From: Deltaproteobacteria bacterium
GTDB taxonomy: Bacteria > Myxococcota_A > Polyangia > Polyangiales > Houyiibacteriaceae
Reading direction: 5' to 3'
Assembly: GCA_019313915.1 (NCBI GenBank)
Contig: JAFDAJ010000011.1
Location: 1-53,784 of the forward strand
DNA length: 53,784 nucleotides
This document shows, one piece after another, positions 199 through 53,784 of the stretch. A model generated the notes under the pieces. It was not told the DNA's origin and did not search any database. It saw only the letters and a program-made list of their open reading frames with translations. The translations under genes and the position numbers were made by a program. How positions within the stretch are numbered: the stretch's first letter is position 1; each line of letters opens with the position of its first letter.

Positions 199-1559
199 CG
201 TCGCGACGAACGGCGCTTGGCCTTCTTGGCGGGAGCTTTACGACGCTTCTTGGCCGCGGCTCCTCGCTTTTTCGGCGCAGCACGCTTCTTCGTTACCTTG
301 GCGCGCTTCTTCGGGGCTGCCCGTTTCTTCGTCACCTTGGCGCGCTTCTTCGGGGCTGCCCGTTTCTTCGTCACCTTGGTGCGCTTCTTCGGAGCTGCCC
401 GTTTTTTCGTCAGCTTGGTGCGCTTCTTTGCAGCCGCGCGCTTTTTCGTCACCTTGGCGCGCTTCTTCGCAGCAGCACCCCGTTTTTTGGGCGCCGCTCT
501 CTTCTTGGTGGCCGCGCGGCGTTTCTTCGTGGCAGGCCGACGCTTGGCAGACGTGCCGCGCTTCTTCGCAGCGGCCTTCTTCTTGGCGGCGGCCTTCTTC
601 TTGGCAGCGGCCTTCTTCTTGGCGGCAACCTTCTTTCGCTTGATCGCGTCCGCTTTCTTCTTCGCCGCCGCCTTCTTCCGCATTCGCATGTCGGCCTTTT
701 TCTTGGCTTCTGCCTTCTTGCGAGCAGCCTCCGCCTTCTTCATGGCGGCGGCCTTTCTCTTCTCGAGCTCGGCCTTCTTTTTCTCTGCTGCCACGAGCTT
801 GGCTTCCGCCTTCTGGACCCTGAGCAGCTCGGCCTTCTTCTTGGCTTCGGCCTTCTTGCGAACAGCCTCGGCCTGCCGGCGGGCCGCTTCGGCCTTCTTC
901 TTGACGTCCGCCTTCCTTTCAGCGGCTTCCTTGCGCGCCTGGGCCTGTGCTCGCGCGAGCTCGCGGAGGTCTATCGTCTTGGTTTCGATTCGCTTGCGGG
1001 TCTTTTTGGGTTTCTCTTCCTCTTCCTCCTCGTCCACCTCCTCCTCTGGAGGCCGCGGAGGGGGAACAAAGGGGCGCCGCGGCGCGGGCCGACTCGCCTT
1101 GATGCCGGAGAGCGGAAGGTGACCTGCCTTCTTGGCCGCCTCATAGGCGGCCCGCATCGCCTCTGGCTCGCCAAAGTACTTGGTCATCGGGTCGAGATAG
1201 AGCTTCTTCCAGAGCTTCTCGCAGGCCTTTCCGAGACCTGGAGGGATCTTGGTGTGGGTGACGTCGATCTTGGTGCCGCCGGCGACCGGTTCAAATGTGA
1301 TATCGACGTGCGAGTCGTTGGTGCCCTTTGGAAAATCGCGGGTTCGCCACGTCATCGCGATCCGGCTTCCAGTCACCAGATAGACGTGTGTCGCATCGAT
1401 GAAACCATCATCTGAAACGACTCGACCGCCTACCCATGGGTCCACCGTAGCCCGCGATCCGGTAAACGCGGAGTGATGGCGCTCGTCCATCCACGCGGAA
1501 TAAATACGGTTTGGACTTGCAGGTATCACGGACGAGACAGTAAATTCTTCCGTGTCCAT
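195..1559 (-). CDS. SRPBCC (AHSA1-like) domain protein with a long lysine/alanine-rich histone-H1-like tail
   Basis: Residues about 1-130 read as an AHSA1/SRPBCC ligand-binding domain (start TEEFTVSSVIPASPNRIYSA; later VDITFEP and GGTKIDVTHT). A proline-rich and then acidic linker (EEEVDEEEEEE) follows, and from about residue 170 to the end (454 aa) the protein is almost only K, A and R, like bacterial H1/HctB-type tails that bind DNA. The tail ends in tandem 13-residue repeats of the KKRAAPKKRAKVT type. ATG 1559 is chosen with GAGG just upstream; a TTG at 1568 is also possible. I infer a nucleoid- or nucleic-acid-binding protein; the ligand of the N-terminal domain is unknown. Slippage in the repeats could vary the tail length. 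Confidence 0.85.
   Translation of the reverse strand: MDTEEFTVSSVIPASPNRIYSAWMDERHHSAFTGSRATVDPWVGGRVVSDDGFIDATHVYLVTGSRIAMTWRTRDFPKGTNDSHVDITFEPVAGGTKIDVTHTKIPPGLGKACEKLWKKLYLDPMTKYFGEPEAMRAAYEAAKKAGHLPLSGIKASRPAPRRPFVPPPRPPEEEVDEEEEEEKPKKTRKRIETKTIDLRELARAQAQARKEAAERKADVKKKAEAARRQAEAVRKKAEAKKKAELLRVQKAEAKLVAAEKKKAELEKRKAAAMKKAEAARKKAEAKKKADMRMRKKAAAKKKADAIKRKKVAAKKKAAAKKKAAAKKKAAAKKRGTSAKRRPATKKRRAATKKRAAPKKRGAAAKKRAKVTKKRAAAKKRTKLTKKRAAPKKRTKVTKKRAAPKKRAKVTKKRAAPKKRAKVTKKRAAPKKRGAAAKKRRKAPAKKAKRRSSRR
263..496 (-). repeat. 39-bp tandem repeat (about 6 copies) coding for the basic tail
   Basis: Units start at about 263, 302, 341, 380, 419 and 458, each containing CGCTTCTTC on the plus strand, and code in frame for 13-residue K/A/R/V/T repeats of the histone-like tail. 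Copies at 302 and 341 are nearly identical; the outer ones have diverged. The period is a multiple of three, so gain or loss of a unit keeps the frame. Confidence 0.85.
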
Positions 1560-37713: not shown

Positions 37714-38727
37714 GTCTTCGAGGTAGGCGACGAAGTCACCGTCAAGGTGCTCAAATACAACGCCGACACGGAGCGAGTGTCGCTCGGCCTCAAGCAGACC
37801 ATGGAAGACCCATGGAATCTGGCGACCAACATCTACGTCGCGGGTAAGAAGGTCAAGGGCAAGGTCGTTTCGCTCACCGACTACGGCGCCTTCATCGAGC
37901 TCGAGCAGGGCGTCGAGGGCCTGATTCACGTCAGTGAAATGACGTGGGCTAAGCCCAAGCATCCGTCGAAGGTGCTCGAGGTCGGCCAAGAGATCGAGTG
38001 TGTCGTTCTCGACCTCGACGCGCAGAACAAGCGCATCAGTTTGGGCCTCAAGCAGCTCGAGCCTGACCCGTGGACGGTCTTCACGCAGAAGTACAACCCG
38101 GGCGACATCATCCAGGGCCGCGTTCGCTCCATCACCGATTACGGGGTGTTCGTTGGCATCGAGGACGGCGTCGACGGCATGGTTCACAAGTCGGACGTCA
38201 GCTGGACCCAGCGCATCAACAACCCCGCCGACGTCTACCGCAAGGGCGACGAGGTCGAGGCAATCATCCTTTCGATCAATCACGACGACCGTAAGGTGAG
38301 CCTCGGCATCAAGCAGCTCTACGAAGATCCATGGAGCTTCGTGCCGCAGCGATATCCCGAGGGCACCGTCGTCGAGGTTCGATCGACCGGCGCCGACGAG
38401 TACGGCATCCACGTCGAGCTCGAGCGCGGAGTCGAGGGTGTGATTCCTCGCGGCGAAATCAGCGCCGATCTCAGCCAGGAGCCAACCGACATCGTCAAGA
38501 CCGGCGACATCGTCAAGGCTCAGGTCATCCGCCTCGACGACGACGACCGGACCATCACGCTGTCGCTTCGCGCAGCCGAGGGCCAAGACGTCAACCAGGT
38601 CGCACGCCCCGAGGAGGCCCAGAAGCGGGTCGCCCCACGCAAGATCGGCCCAAGCCTAGGCGGCGCGCAAGCGACGCTCGGCGATGCGTTGAAGGACAAG
38701 CTCGGAGCACTCAACCTCGCGCCGACC

Positions 38728-38871
38728 GCCGAGGAGACGCCTGCGGAGACCGCCGAAGAGACGCCTGCGGAGACCGCCGAAGAGACGCCTGCGGAGACCG
38801 CCGAAGAGACGCCCGCAGAGGCCGCCGAAGAGACGCCCGCAGAGGCCGCCGAAGAGACGCCCGCAGAGGCC
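38728..38871 (+). repeat. 24-bp tandem repeat, six copies, coding for the S1 acidic tail
   Basis: Six units of 24 bp code for AEETPAET or AEETPAEA. The first three share GCGGAGACC and the last three GCAGAGGCC, so the array grew as two blocks. The unit is a multiple of three, so copy number can change without frameshift. Tails of this sort on S1 are not part of the core fold. Confidence 0.9.
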
Positions 38872-38953
38872 GAAGAGGCCCCGGCGGAAACGCCAGACGC
38901 AGAAGAGAAGCCGGAATAGCAACGTAGGCCTGAGAGCCAACGACACGCAGACG

Positions 38954-39023: not shown

Positions 39024-39053
39024 CCCGACGCTGGCACTGTCGCTGACGCCGAC
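39024..39053 (-). repeat. GNCAGY-type hexamer run (5 units, minus strand)
   Basis: On the minus strand the units read GTCGGC, GTCAGC, GACAGT, GCCAGC, GTCGGG. The same hexamer pattern appears at 41304-41363, 42374-42397 and 52271-52348. Confidence 0.6.
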
Positions 39054-39268
39054 ACTAGGTCGTGTGGAGGGGCACGGCGGAGCGCGATGTGGGGACCCAG
39101 CGGCGTAGCGAGTGACAATCTGCAAGACAGCAACCACCGCAGATTGGGCGCGAGCGCCGAGGGGAGGCTTGCGTGGCCACAGGATCCCAGTCCCTCCGGC
39201 CACCTTTGCAAGCCGACCCGTCCGCAGGGTCCCCGCGTCGCGTTCCGCCGTGCCCCGGCTCTTCTACG

Positions 39269-40024: not shown

Positions 40025-40176
40025 CTCATCCTCATTCAGCAGTGGCGGCCGCCGACCGGCGCTCGCACTCTCAGATTAGCGAAAACACCGCGGTCCACCA
40101 AGAAGAGCGCGGAAATCGTTCCCCGTGGGCCGCCTTACCACTGACAAGGGAAGGGCGGCTGCTAAGCTCGCAGCGC

Positions 40177-41574
40177 ATGAGCGATGGCGAAGCGACCGAA
40201 GACCTCGAATCGGCCTGGACGGCGCTCCTAGCAAACCAGAACCGCTTGGGGTCGGACCGGAAGCTCGCTAATCTGGCGCTCGGCTTGATCCAGCAAATGG
40301 GCAACGGGGTCGCCCACCGCGACGTTCTCCATGCCCTGGCGGAGGCCTGGACCCCAGACTGGCGCCTGACGCTTACGGCTTCCTCCCTTCTCGTCGAGCA
40401 GGCTGGACGCCGTGGCATGGACGAGCCGACGCTCACCGACGATGGACCCGCATCGTGGGCTGCGGCCGCTTTGCAACGAAGCTTGGACGCCCTGAGTGAT
40501 GCCGAGCGCGCCAACGCGGACCTGGCGGGGAATATGTACGCGATGCTCGGGAACGCGCTTCGGTTGTGCGGCCCAGGCCGGGATGCTGAAGCGCAGGAAG
40601 CGTTCACTCGCGCCATTGAGCTCGACCCCGAGCGCGGAGAGTGGTGGTACGACGCAGGCTTGCTCGACAAGTGGCGTGGCAGGTTCGACGACGGTTACGC
40701 TGCCAACGAGCAAGCGCGCATGCGCATGGGTCCCCAACGACCCGTGCTTTGGAATCTCGCGATCTGCGCGACCGCGCTCGGCAAGGCTGAGGAAGCGGCC
40801 GAAATCTGGGAGGAGATCGGGGTGCCTGCGCGTCTCGATCGATCACGCGGCATGCCTTACGTCGCTGGGCTTCCACCGATGTTGCTCCGTGTGTTGTCGC
40901 GCACATCGCCCACGGACGGCACCTCGTCGCTCCCCGACAAGACCGTGGGTTTCGAGTTGGTGTGGATCGCGCCGCTCAGCCCGTGCCACGGGGTGGTGCA
41001 GTCGCCAATATTTGGCGATGCGCCCATCGACTACGGCGACCTGGTACTATGGGATGGAGCGCCAGTCGCGGCCCACCGAACTTCCGCCGGGGACACGGTG
41101 CCAGTCTTTCCGCTGCTCGAGGTCTTGCGACCGGGAAGCGAGCGGCGCTGGTCCTTCGTCGCGCTCGAGACAGAGCCTGGTGCGCGCGAAGGGCTCGAAG
41201 ACGCGCTGCCGGAAGGCACCCGGGTGTTTGTGCAGGATGAGCGGGTCGGCCATCACTGTGCGGCGTGCGAAGCAGGGGATGGGGATCCGCACGAGCACGA
41301 GGAGGCAGTGTCGGGGGCAGGGACAGTGCCAGTGCCAGCGTCAGGTCCAGTGCCGGGGTCGGTCTCCCTCGTTCGGGGGAAGGTCATCGTTCAGCCCACC
41401 CAGGACTTGGAGGCTTTTCGGGATGCTTGGGAGGCTGCCGCTCGGGCACGGCCATTGTCCGTTTCCCTTCCTGCTCTGTACGAAGAGCTAGGTGATTCCA
41501 AGCGGGCGGGGCAAGAGCATCAGGCCTGGCGGGGCATCGAGGGGAAGGCGATTCGCCAGAAAGCGGGCGCGTGA
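40177..41574 (+). CDS. TPR-repeat protein with an unrecognised C-terminal domain
   Basis: 465 aa from ATG 40177 (MSDGEATEDLESAW). Residues about 115-230 form TPR-like helical hairpins (AQEAFTRAIELDPERGEWWY; RPVLWNLAICATALGKAEEA). A second part (about 245-360: VGFELVWIAPLSPCHGVVQS; DYGDLVLWDGAPVAAHRTS) looks like an independent fold I cannot name. A CAAC pair with His residues (HHCAACEAGDGDPHEHEE) may bind metal. Then comes a low-complexity linker coded by a hexamer repeat (41304-41363) and a helical end. An alternative start at 40042 lies over the PP2C promoter and is unlikely. Its stop overlaps the VUT gene (GTGA). Confidence 0.8.
   Translation: MSDGEATEDLESAWTALLANQNRLGSDRKLANLALGLIQQMGNGVAHRDVLHALAEAWTPDWRLTLTASSLLVEQAGRRGMDEPTLTDDGPASWAAAALQRSLDALSDAERANADLAGNMYAMLGNALRLCGPGRDAEAQEAFTRAIELDPERGEWWYDAGLLDKWRGRFDDGYAANEQARMRMGPQRPVLWNLAICATALGKAEEAAEIWEEIGVPARLDRSRGMPYVAGLPPMLLRVLSRTSPTDGTSSLPDKTVGFELVWIAPLSPCHGVVQSPIFGDAPIDYGDLVLWDGAPVAAHRTSAGDTVPVFPLLEVLRPGSERRWSFVALETEPGAREGLEDALPEGTRVFVQDERVGHHCAACEAGDGDPHEHEEAVSGAGTVPVPASGPVPGSVSLVRGKVIVQPTQDLEAFRDAWEAAARARPLSVSLPALYEELGDSKRAGQEHQAWRGIEGKAIRQKAGA
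41304..41363 (+). repeat. GNCAGY-type hexamer array inside the TPR gene (10 units)
   Basis: Ten consecutive hexamers from GGCAGT to GTCGGT, including GACAGT, GCCAGT, GCCAGC and GTCAGG. They read as a Ser/Gly/Val/Pro/Ala linker (SGAGTVPVPASGPVPGSV). As six is a multiple of three the array leaves the frame intact. Confidence 0.7.
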
Positions 41575-42373: not shown

Positions 42374-42397
42374 GTGGCACTGGCGCCAACGCTGTCG
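42374..42397 (-). repeat. GNCAGY-type hexamer run (4 units, minus strand)
   Basis: On the minus strand the units read GACAGC, GTTGGC, GCCAGT, GCCACT; degenerate but in the same phase and pattern as the longer arrays. It lies directly after the VUT stop codon. Confidence 0.5.
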
Positions 42398-50907: not shown

Positions 50908-52278
50908 GTGCCAGACCGAATTCTCCGCCAGCAGATCGCAAGCCCGGTGCTCGATATTTGTAAGGAGCTCCGCAATGCCGGGGAGCGGGCCTGGGTAGTG
51001 GGCGGCTGTGTGAGGGACACCTTGCGCGGCCAGCGGGTCAACGATTGGGATGTAGCCACGACAGCCTTGCCCGAAAAGGTCCAGCAAACGTTCCGCAAGG
51101 TCATCCCGACCGGCATCGACCATGGGACCGTGACCGTGCTCTGGAAGGGCGGGGCCTACGAGGTCACGACGCTCCGCGGGGATGGCACCTATACCGACGG
51201 CCGACGACCCGACAGCGTCGTCTTCGTCGAGGATATCGACCGCGACCTCGCACGCCGCGATTTCACGGTGAACGCCATCGCCTACGACCCCGTCGAGGGC
51301 AGGGTGGCCGATCCGTTCGACGGCCTGGCCGATATGCGGGACCAGGTGCTGCGGGCCGTCGGTGAACCGAGCGAGCGCTTCCAGGAAGACGGGCTTCGAA
51401 TCTTACGCGGAGCGCGGTTCGTCGCGACGCTCGGATTCGAGCTCGAGGAAGCCACCGAGGCGGCCTTTCGTGGTGCGCTCGATACATTTCGCAAGGTGAG
51501 CCCCGAGCGCGTGCGCGATGAGTGGCTGAAGGCGATGAAGGCCAACACTCCGTCGCGCGCGTTCGAGGTGATGCGGCGGACCGGCATCCTCGAAGTGACG
51601 TACCCCGAGCTTCTCGAACAAGTCGGTTGTGAGCAGAATCAATGGCACGCGTACGACGTGTGGGACCACACGATGCGAGTGCTCGACGAATCGGTGAACG
51701 ACCCGGTCGAACGAGTCGCGGCGCTTCTTCACGACGTGGCCAAGCCGCGCACGCGAGCGAAGTCGGACAAGACCAACGACTGGACCTTCTACCACCACGA
51801 AAAGGTCGGCGCAGACATGGCCGAGCGCTGGCTCCGCGATTACCGATTTTCCAACCAAGAGCGCAAGCTCGTGGTCGGCCTCATTCGCCATCACCTGATC
51901 TGTTACACCAGCCAATGGACCGACGCCGCGGTACGGCGCTTCATCAAACGCGTCGGAACCGACGGCGTCGAGCCGCTGTTACGCCTGGGAAAAGCCGACG
52001 CACTCGGCAAGGGGCGCAACGTAGAAGAAGAGCTCGCAGCATTGAAGGAGCTGCGTGACCGGGTCGACAAGGCGATGGAAGAGGGCAACGCCCTCACGAT
52101 CCAGGACCTCGCCATAGGCGGCAACGACGTGATCGAGCATTTGGAGGGCGGGGCAGGCCCGGCGGTCGGTGAGATTCTCCGAGACCTGCTGGACCGGGTA
52201 ATCGAGGATCCTTCGTTGAACACCCGCGACAAACTGATGCCGATCGTGGAGGAACTGGCGGCCAAGCAAGGTCAGTGA
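50908..52278 (+). CDS. CCA tRNA nucleotidyltransferase / poly(A) polymerase family enzyme with HD domain
   Basis: 456 aa, class II nucleotidyltransferase. Catalytic GGCVRDTLRGQRVNDWDVAT (residues about 31-50) has the two metal-binding aspartates; RRDFTVNAIAYDP, DPFDGLADM and EDGLRILRGARFVATLGFEL follow. An HD phosphohydrolase domain starts near 260 with DHTMRVLDE and LLHDVAKP. The HD domain favours a CCA-adding enzyme with repair activity over PcnB, but I cannot separate them. GTG 50908 is used. The stop TGA (52276-52278) lies inside the first units of a hexamer array. Confidence 0.92.
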   Translation: MPDRILRQQIASPVLDICKELRNAGERAWVVGGCVRDTLRGQRVNDWDVATTALPEKVQQTFRKVIPTGIDHGTVTVLWKGGAYEVTTLRGDGTYTDGRRPDSVVFVEDIDRDLARRDFTVNAIAYDPVEGRVADPFDGLADMRDQVLRAVGEPSERFQEDGLRILRGARFVATLGFELEEATEAAFRGALDTFRKVSPERVRDEWLKAMKANTPSRAFEVMRRTGILEVTYPELLEQVGCEQNQWHAYDVWDHTMRVLDESVNDPVERVAALLHDVAKPRTRAKSDKTNDWTFYHHEKVGADMAERWLRDYRFSNQERKLVVGLIRHHLICYTSQWTDAAVRRFIKRVGTDGVEPLLRLGKADALGKGRNVEEELAALKELRDRVDKAMEEGNALTIQDLAIGGNDVIEHLEGGAGPAVGEILRDLLDRVIEDPSLNTRDKLMPIVEELAAKQGQ

Positions 52279-52348
52279 CAGTGGCAGTGGCAGCGTCAGT
52301 GGCAGTGGCAGTGGCAGTGCCAGTGGCAGCGTCAGTGGCAGTGCCGGT
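52271..52348 (+). repeat. GNCAGY-type hexamer array starting at the stop codon (13 units)
   Basis: Thirteen consecutive hexamers: GTCAGT, GACAGT, GGCAGT, GGCAGC, GTCAGT, three GGCAGT, GCCAGT, GGCAGC, GTCAGT, GGCAGT and GCCGGT. The array begins within the last codons of the CCA-enzyme gene (its TGA is inside) and fills half of the gap to the next gene. It is the longest and cleanest of four such runs in this window. Confidence 0.85.
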
Positions 52349-52831: not shown

Positions 52832-52838
52832 CCCTTTC

Positions 52839-52861
52839 AAAAAGGGGACTGTCCCCTTTTT
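52839..52861. terminator. Perfect palindrome with A- and T-runs between convergent genes
   Basis: AAAAAGGGGAC and GTCCCCTTTTT are perfect 11-bp arms around one T. T-runs stand on both strands, so it can stop transcription both ways (stops at 52831 and 52867). Same style as 24171-24193. Confidence 0.85.
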
Positions 52862-52866
52862 CTCGG

Positions 52867-53784
52867 TTACGGGATCGGGTCGGCGACGGATTGTTCGAAA
52901 CAGTAGAGGTGGAGACTGTCCTGTACGCAAGTTTGGAAGTCTCCAGCTGTCCAGCCTTGGCCGACGCTCGTGGTCTTTCCGACCGCTGGGAGCGCAACGG
53001 AGCCGCCAGCGGAGGGATCGTTCGTGGTCAGGCCAAGGCAGCCATTGTTGGGGTGCACGACTCCATCGAACGTTGTGTTGGTCCAGGTTCGGCACCCGAG
53101 TACCGGGGCTGTGCGCTGGCAAGCACTCGAGCCCGGCGAGAGAACAGTGCCGAACTCATCGATCTCGATGTTGTTGTCGAGATGGCCTTCACCAGGGGGT
53201 GGTGGATCCATGGTCAGACGCTGCCAGCTCGAAGAGATCTGCGTCCCGTCGAGCATGCGGTACGGAAGCGTCGACTTCTCGAAGCGCTTGAGCGGCGAGG
53301 TGCACCGATCCGAGGTCCACGAGAACCAATAGCCGCCAAGGCCAGCGGCTTCCGCCACGTCCGCGCAGATTTGGTCGGCGCCGCGCGGGCCACCGAGGGC
53401 CGCGTCCGACTGGGCGCTGCTCAAGAACACGAGCCCCGACGCCATACAGGTCCCCGCTACACAGACCTCCATCTCGCCGCACGTGACTTCTCCGCAGAAC
53501 CGGTTCATCGCGGAGCCGGCCCACGGGGCGCCGCCATCCGGAATACAGATGCCGCCGCCGGTGCCGCCTTGGCCGCCCATGCCGCCACCCATGCCGCCGG
53601 CGCCAGCCATGCCGCCCATGCCACCTGTGCCCGCCATGCCGCCAGTGCCGGCCATGCCGCCCATGCCACCTGTGCCCGCCATGCCGCCGGTGCCGGCCAT
53701 GCCGCCCATGCCACCTGTGCCCGCCATGCCGCCGGTGCCGGCCATGCCGCCGGTGCCGGCCATGCCGCCCATACCGCCTGCGCC
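52867..53784 (-). CDS. DUF1554-type (endostatin-like/C-type-lectin-like) surface protein, N-terminus outside window
   Basis: The frame is open to the right edge, so the N-terminus, probably a signal or lipoprotein peptide, is missing. The first part seen is about 70 residues of Gly/Met/Ala/Thr repeats (GGMAGTGGMAGTGGMGG style), then a short Cys-rich stretch (FCGEVTCGEMEVCVAGTC). The C-terminal 180 residues match the DUF1554/collagen-endostatin-like pattern (LVFLSSAQSDAALGGPRGAD; QICADVAEAAGLGGYWFSW; DGTQISSSWQRL; NNIEIDEFG) with conserved cysteines near the end (GCRTWTN, CVQDSLHLYCFEQ). Such proteins are exposed on myxobacterial and leptospiral surfaces. The internal repeats may be a spacer. 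Confidence 0.82.
   Translation of the reverse strand, partial: GAGGMGGMAGTGGMAGTGGMAGTGGMGGMAGTGGMAGTGGMGGMAGTGGMAGTGGMGGMAGAGGMGGGMGGQGGTGGGICIPDGGAPWAGSAMNRFCGEVTCGEMEVCVAGTCMASGLVFLSSAQSDAALGGPRGADQICADVAEAAGLGGYWFSWTSDRCTSPLKRFEKSTLPYRMLDGTQISSSWQRLTMDPPPPGEGHLDNNIEIDEFGTVLSPGSSACQRTAPVLGCRTWTNTTFDGVVHPNNGCLGLTTNDPSAGGSVALPAVGKTTSVGQGWTAGDFQTCVQDSLHLYCFEQSVADPIP

Follow-up and report, generated by a model that had tools for sequence, protein, structure and literature searches.

A genus-specific family of degenerate (GNCAGY)n tandem arrays with a possibly DNA-read CAGYG core in uncultured myxobacteria-like bacteria

The hexamer array that overlaps the end of a CCA-adding enzyme gene belongs to a repeat family of a generally known type that is specific to one lineage, a genus of uncultured myxobacteria-like bacteria. 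We read this family as genus-specific, degenerate and subject to fast turnover, amplified by local duplication and kept to its CAGYG core by a putative agent that reads the DNA, and we put the probability of this reading at about one half.

The window, that is, the whole stretch of 53,784 nucleotides that was analysed, contains 12 three-unit GNCAGY matches, compared with zero in dinucleotide shuffles of the same sequence, and its repeats and relevant genes are collected in Table 1. The preliminary description had reported 13 consecutive hexamers from position 52271 that overlap the TGA of the CCA-adding enzyme gene. Twelve of these are perfect and stand back to back at 52271-52342, but the thirteenth, GCCGGT at 52343-52348, has one mismatch to the motif. 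The overlap was borne out, since the 3′ end of the ORF falls inside the array and its stop codon is supplied by GTCAG-TGA-CAG. Three further copies had been claimed in the window; two of them are weaker but were picked up by the scan, whereas the third, at 42374, is sub-threshold and could be either chance or the remains of an array. The claim that all copies share one phase is meaningless between separate loci, and the frame is kept inside a gene because the unit is 6 bp, so that no special explanation is needed. The copy at 39024 is matched by an array of identical orientation in the orthologous gap of genome G016. The gene hosting the copy at 41304 is of unknown family; in the NCA-GYG frame the array encodes a (T/P/A/S)(V/A/G) linker, and the G016 ortholog likewise carries an array in this linker. 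No known RNA families were found within the window.

Table 1. Repeats and associated genes in the analysed window
Feature	Position	Strand	Details
GNCAGY array, 12 perfect units + GCCGGT	52271-52348	+	Motif scan and shuffles
CCA-adding enzyme / tRNA nucleotidyltransferase gene, 456 aa	50908-52278	+	PolyA_pol head, RNA-binding and HD domains
Short degenerate GNCAGY array	39024-39053	-	3 perfect units of 5; 3′ gap adjoining MITE-like element
Degenerate 10-unit array	41304-41363	+	3 perfect consecutive units; inside gene 40042-41574
Weak array-like stretch	42374-42397	-	2 perfect units of 4; after stop codon; below detection threshold
MITE-like element, ~190 bp, inverted GGAGGGGCRCGGCGGAGCGCGA-type ends	39066-39256		~11 left-end matches in own genome
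Near-perfect palindrome GAAAAAGGGGACAGTCCCCTTTTTC	52838-52862		
24-bp coding tandem repeat, 6.2 copies	38724-38872		C-terminal end of S1-domain (ribosomal protein S1-like) gene
Long coding-like GCCGCCCAT/GCCGCCGGTGCC repeat array	53549-53784		Window end
39-bp repeat	265-473		Near window start

Other repeats accompany the arrays. Several copies of the MITE-like element have a GNCAGY array at a distance of 12-19 nt on their left (GGAGGGGC) side, and the array at the CCA-adding enzyme gene is followed by a relic-like left end of this element. The palindrome recurs close to other arrays of the genome and also in the G012 gap downstream of the CCA gene, which has no array, and it is probably another dispersed intergenic repeat.

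A genome-wide scan for runs of three or more units, as the preliminary description had proposed, returned 174 + 158 = 332 matches in the genome of origin (4.41 Mb, 448 contigs), compared with 2 + 3 = 5 for GNCAGY read backwards. Runs of eight perfect units gave 51 + 52 overlapping matches and zero in this control. For called arrays we used order-3 Markov shuffles as the control and dropped the reversed-sequence control, because a GNCAGY array still gains part of its score when reversed; stretches from three genomes held 54, 33 and 13 arrays, and their shuffles 1, 0 and 0. The array statistics cover stretches of four genomes, ~2.4 Mb in total, of which the blocks of G016, G014 and G015 were mostly taken regardless of arrays and those of G000 were partly picked for containing them, so that the densities of G000 are inflated. 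Of the 18 period-6 repeats in a 387-kb sample, 17 were members of the GNCAGY family in a broad sense.

Four-unit matches are present in 17 of the 18 other genomes of the genus (20 to 890 per genome; none in G010) and absent from most other genera of the taxonomic family. A sample of 377 genomes from the phylum again set the genus apart, with the repeat family missing from most of them. The three strong exceptions outside the genus for which repeats were listed are nearly pure GTCAGC or GGCAGC tracts; the exceptions that are readable are homogeneous, ordinary slippage tracts. Many congeners were found in Myxococcales, Polyangiaceae or Deltaproteobacteria metagenome assemblies and include the single-contig chromosomes CP070713 and CP070650; because arrays occur in these as well, the family is not the artefact of a single assembly.

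The arrays are head-to-tail copies of a 6-bp unit, as in bacterial short tandem repeat or microsatellite families, whose units are no longer than 6 bp, and (GNCAGY)n is equivalent to CAGYG plus one free spacer base. Because the array-calling score favours the motif, we rely for positional figures on Tandem Repeats Finder (TRF), the scoring of which treats every unit position alike. For 690 units from intergenic arrays, the minor-base fractions at positions 1 to 6 were 1.3, 52, 1.0, 7.2, 0.7 and 23%, a contrast that is somewhat exaggerated by the rule for family membership (80% match at positions 1, 3, 4, 5 and 6). G1, C3 and G5 are therefore ~99% fixed and A4 93%, with deviations mostly to G, whereas position 2 varies almost freely and position 6 holds a pyrimidine, T more often than C. 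The pattern is unchanged in the within-array means (0.015, 0.31, 0.009, 0.077, 0.004 and 0.19). Intergenic period-6 arrays of non-family motifs are nearly absent. Size-matched arrays of this hexamer contain 3.6-3.9 distinct canonical units within the genus versus 1.2-1.5 in other bacteria. Adjacent units are more alike than in within-array shuffles, most strongly at lag 2 (0.574 versus 0.487 at position 2), a sign that one or two units may be duplicated locally. With three positions almost invariant, a fourth nearly so and two free in non-coding DNA, units that keep CAGYG appear to be distinguished at the DNA level.

Comparison of orthologous sites, with one genome per species, points to rapid change. 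The CCA-adding enzyme has orthologs in 17 of the 19 genomes of the genus that were searched, the genome of origin included. Downstream sequence could be read in 14 species, and about half of them have arrays or clear remnants behind the gene, ranging from 4 units in G009 to ~26 in G016, and the gap has no array in, for example, G012, G013, G003 and G001. Another intergenic element (AGACAGCAGGCGGCAGCGCGAGCCCGAAGGGCGAAGCCCGGCGCGAAGCGCC...) fills this gap in G006, G005, G017 and G002 (L239, L240, L237 and L238). Unit number varies between species at other orthologous gaps as well. At loci not picked for arrays, the orthologous position in another species also carries an array for 4 of 5 G000 sites, and at shared sites the flanks are roughly 70-85% identical while the units differ. 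A different intergenic repeat (GGTTTGCGGTTTTGCGGTCAGCGGTT-like) replaces the array at one orthologous site (L272 6697-6749; L276 gap orthologous to G000 C335:2320). On the CCA-protein tree, G016 and G018 are sisters with 890 and 20 four-unit matches, respectively (~45-fold), and G010, which has none, groups with G015, which has 213. Such swings in copy number among close species argue for quick turnover, and near-absence of the family is compatible with life in the genus.

By the gene calls of a simple in-house dicodon scorer, 53 of 87 arrays lie outside genes. Both neighbouring genes were called for 50 intergenic arrays, which were distributed over 31 tandem, 13 convergent and 6 divergent gaps, where gap numbers predict 29.8, 6.2 and 14.0 (chi-square p=0.002), and in the tandem gaps 22 of 31 arrays were closer to the upstream stop (p=0.03). 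The clustering at 3′ ends suspected from the window is thus moderate yet significant, with convergent gaps enriched and divergent gaps depleted, and the suggestion that a simple-sequence family occupies gene ends on either strand is upheld across the genus. Array strand shows no preference relative to the genes, either near stops (17 same, 23 opposite) or in tandem gaps (14 of 31). This independence argues against an action in the transcript, and a function tied to the transcript strand was rejected. The simplest reading of the placement is tolerance, with promoters avoided.

Three further mechanisms were examined. The window array alone has a folding z-score of -4.9 against dinucleotide shuffles, but the 52 arrays taken together showed no folding excess (mean z 0.17 against letter shuffles and -0.13 against unit-order shuffles), and expansion driven by hairpins was therefore rejected. 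An explanation by replication strand is unsupported: two-arc tests of array orientation gave p=0.21 and 0.29 on two single-contig chromosomes, on which GC skew indicated no clear origin. Terminator-like hairpins were found at 2 of 54 array-bearing 3′ ends versus 44 of 574 others, a non-significant difference (p=0.41) that leaves a replacement of intrinsic terminators by arrays unsupported.

In the reading that we prefer, slippage or unequal recombination would duplicate one, two or more units locally and so make arrays grow and shrink, and only units with the CAGYG core would stay, because an agent acting on the DNA would read the core at amplification or retention. This agent would most simply be a DNA-binding or DNA-processing protein of the genus, and the siting at 3′ ends would mainly reflect that insertions are tolerated there. 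A more specific version, in which a putative protein recognises CAGYG in double-stranded DNA and its binding, or the duplication that it provokes, enforces the five-base core and the free sixth base across arrays, is tentative, and we regard it as less likely than not. Purely neutral microsatellites, plain slippage tracts in which sequence context or base modification would make mutation unusually fast at positions 2 and 6 in this genus while nothing reads the motif, would account for the copy-number swings between sister species, the 3′ placement, the likeness of neighbouring units and the fact that both variable pyrimidines follow a G (GpY). Neutral slippage with random mutation would vary all six positions, however, and does not predict the observed pattern; the minor-base fractions differ 20- to 70-fold between positions, and positional mutation hot-spots are unlikely. 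G-to-A and C-to-T are usually the commonest changes in bacteria, yet they are rare at positions 1, 3 and 5, and the A and G that occur at position 2 are not produced by simple deamination. Because arrays of the same hexamer are, in addition, homogeneous in other bacteria, we consider the neutral account rather unlikely.

A functional binding array, on which a putative host protein would oligomerise along tandem CAGYG and so insulate or mark the ends of genes, perhaps by blocking transcription as a roadblock, would fit a core that is constrained although no coding need requires it. The excess in convergent and deficit in divergent gaps, the acceptance of either orientation and the retention of arrays at orthologous sites also fit it. 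Position-specific constraint agrees with recognition of the CAGYG core, but the large swings between sister species argue against an essential host function. The lack of matches in G010 and the array-free CCA sites in about half of the species also speak against such an array; nor do terminator-like hairpins differ significantly at array-bearing 3′ ends. We judge this explanation improbable. Arrays within genes, often antisense in the RCT-GNC frame, could point to Thr/Ala-Gly/Asp/Ala/Val linkers, low-complexity coding repeats that either spread or persist as pseudogene remnants. In that frame, however, the third codon positions are largely fixed and the amino-acid-changing positions variable, so that selection at the protein level fails to explain the pattern, and most arrays lie outside called genes; a coding origin is disfavoured as very improbable.

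The nearest known kind of repeat is the STRR of heterocyst-forming cyanobacteria, clade-restricted tandem arrays of short units that are often intergenic and of unknown function (PMC2670836). The GNCAGY family is of a similar kind, its arrays being also many, clade-restricted and mostly outside genes, and is not a member. The unit of a cyanobacterial STRR is usually 7 bp, and hairpin formation has been reported for an STRR, whereas the GNCAGY unit is no heptanucleotide but a hexamer of another motif, and hairpins are not general among its arrays. With microsatellites and VNTRs (MLVA loci), such as (GCCAGT)n in Acetobacter and Shewanella, the family shares the hexamer frame, the period and length changes in whole units, but the tracts of this type that we found are nearly homogeneous and the arrays of the genus are mixed at positions 2 and 6. 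REP- and MITE-like dispersed repeats are likewise intergenic, multi-copy and clade-specific, but GNCAGY arrays are tandem only and have no inverted ends, fixed length or single-copy unit. In the open literature, a scope outside which most subscription journals fall, we found no description of the GNCAGY family.

Short tandem repeats are scarce in most bacterial genomes (PMC12699852), and here one uncultured genus of Myxococcota type carries many tens of degenerate-hexamer arrays per genome. Because some of them fall at the end of a contig, metagenome assemblies are also broken by them. A strict positional pattern without coding constraint offers a testable case for a sequence-specific process that maintains repeats in bacteria, and the sister pair G016 and G018 provides a natural contrast for locating the gene responsible. 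If a CAGYG-reading agent exists, the family would represent a self-propagating degenerate repeat in a bacterium.
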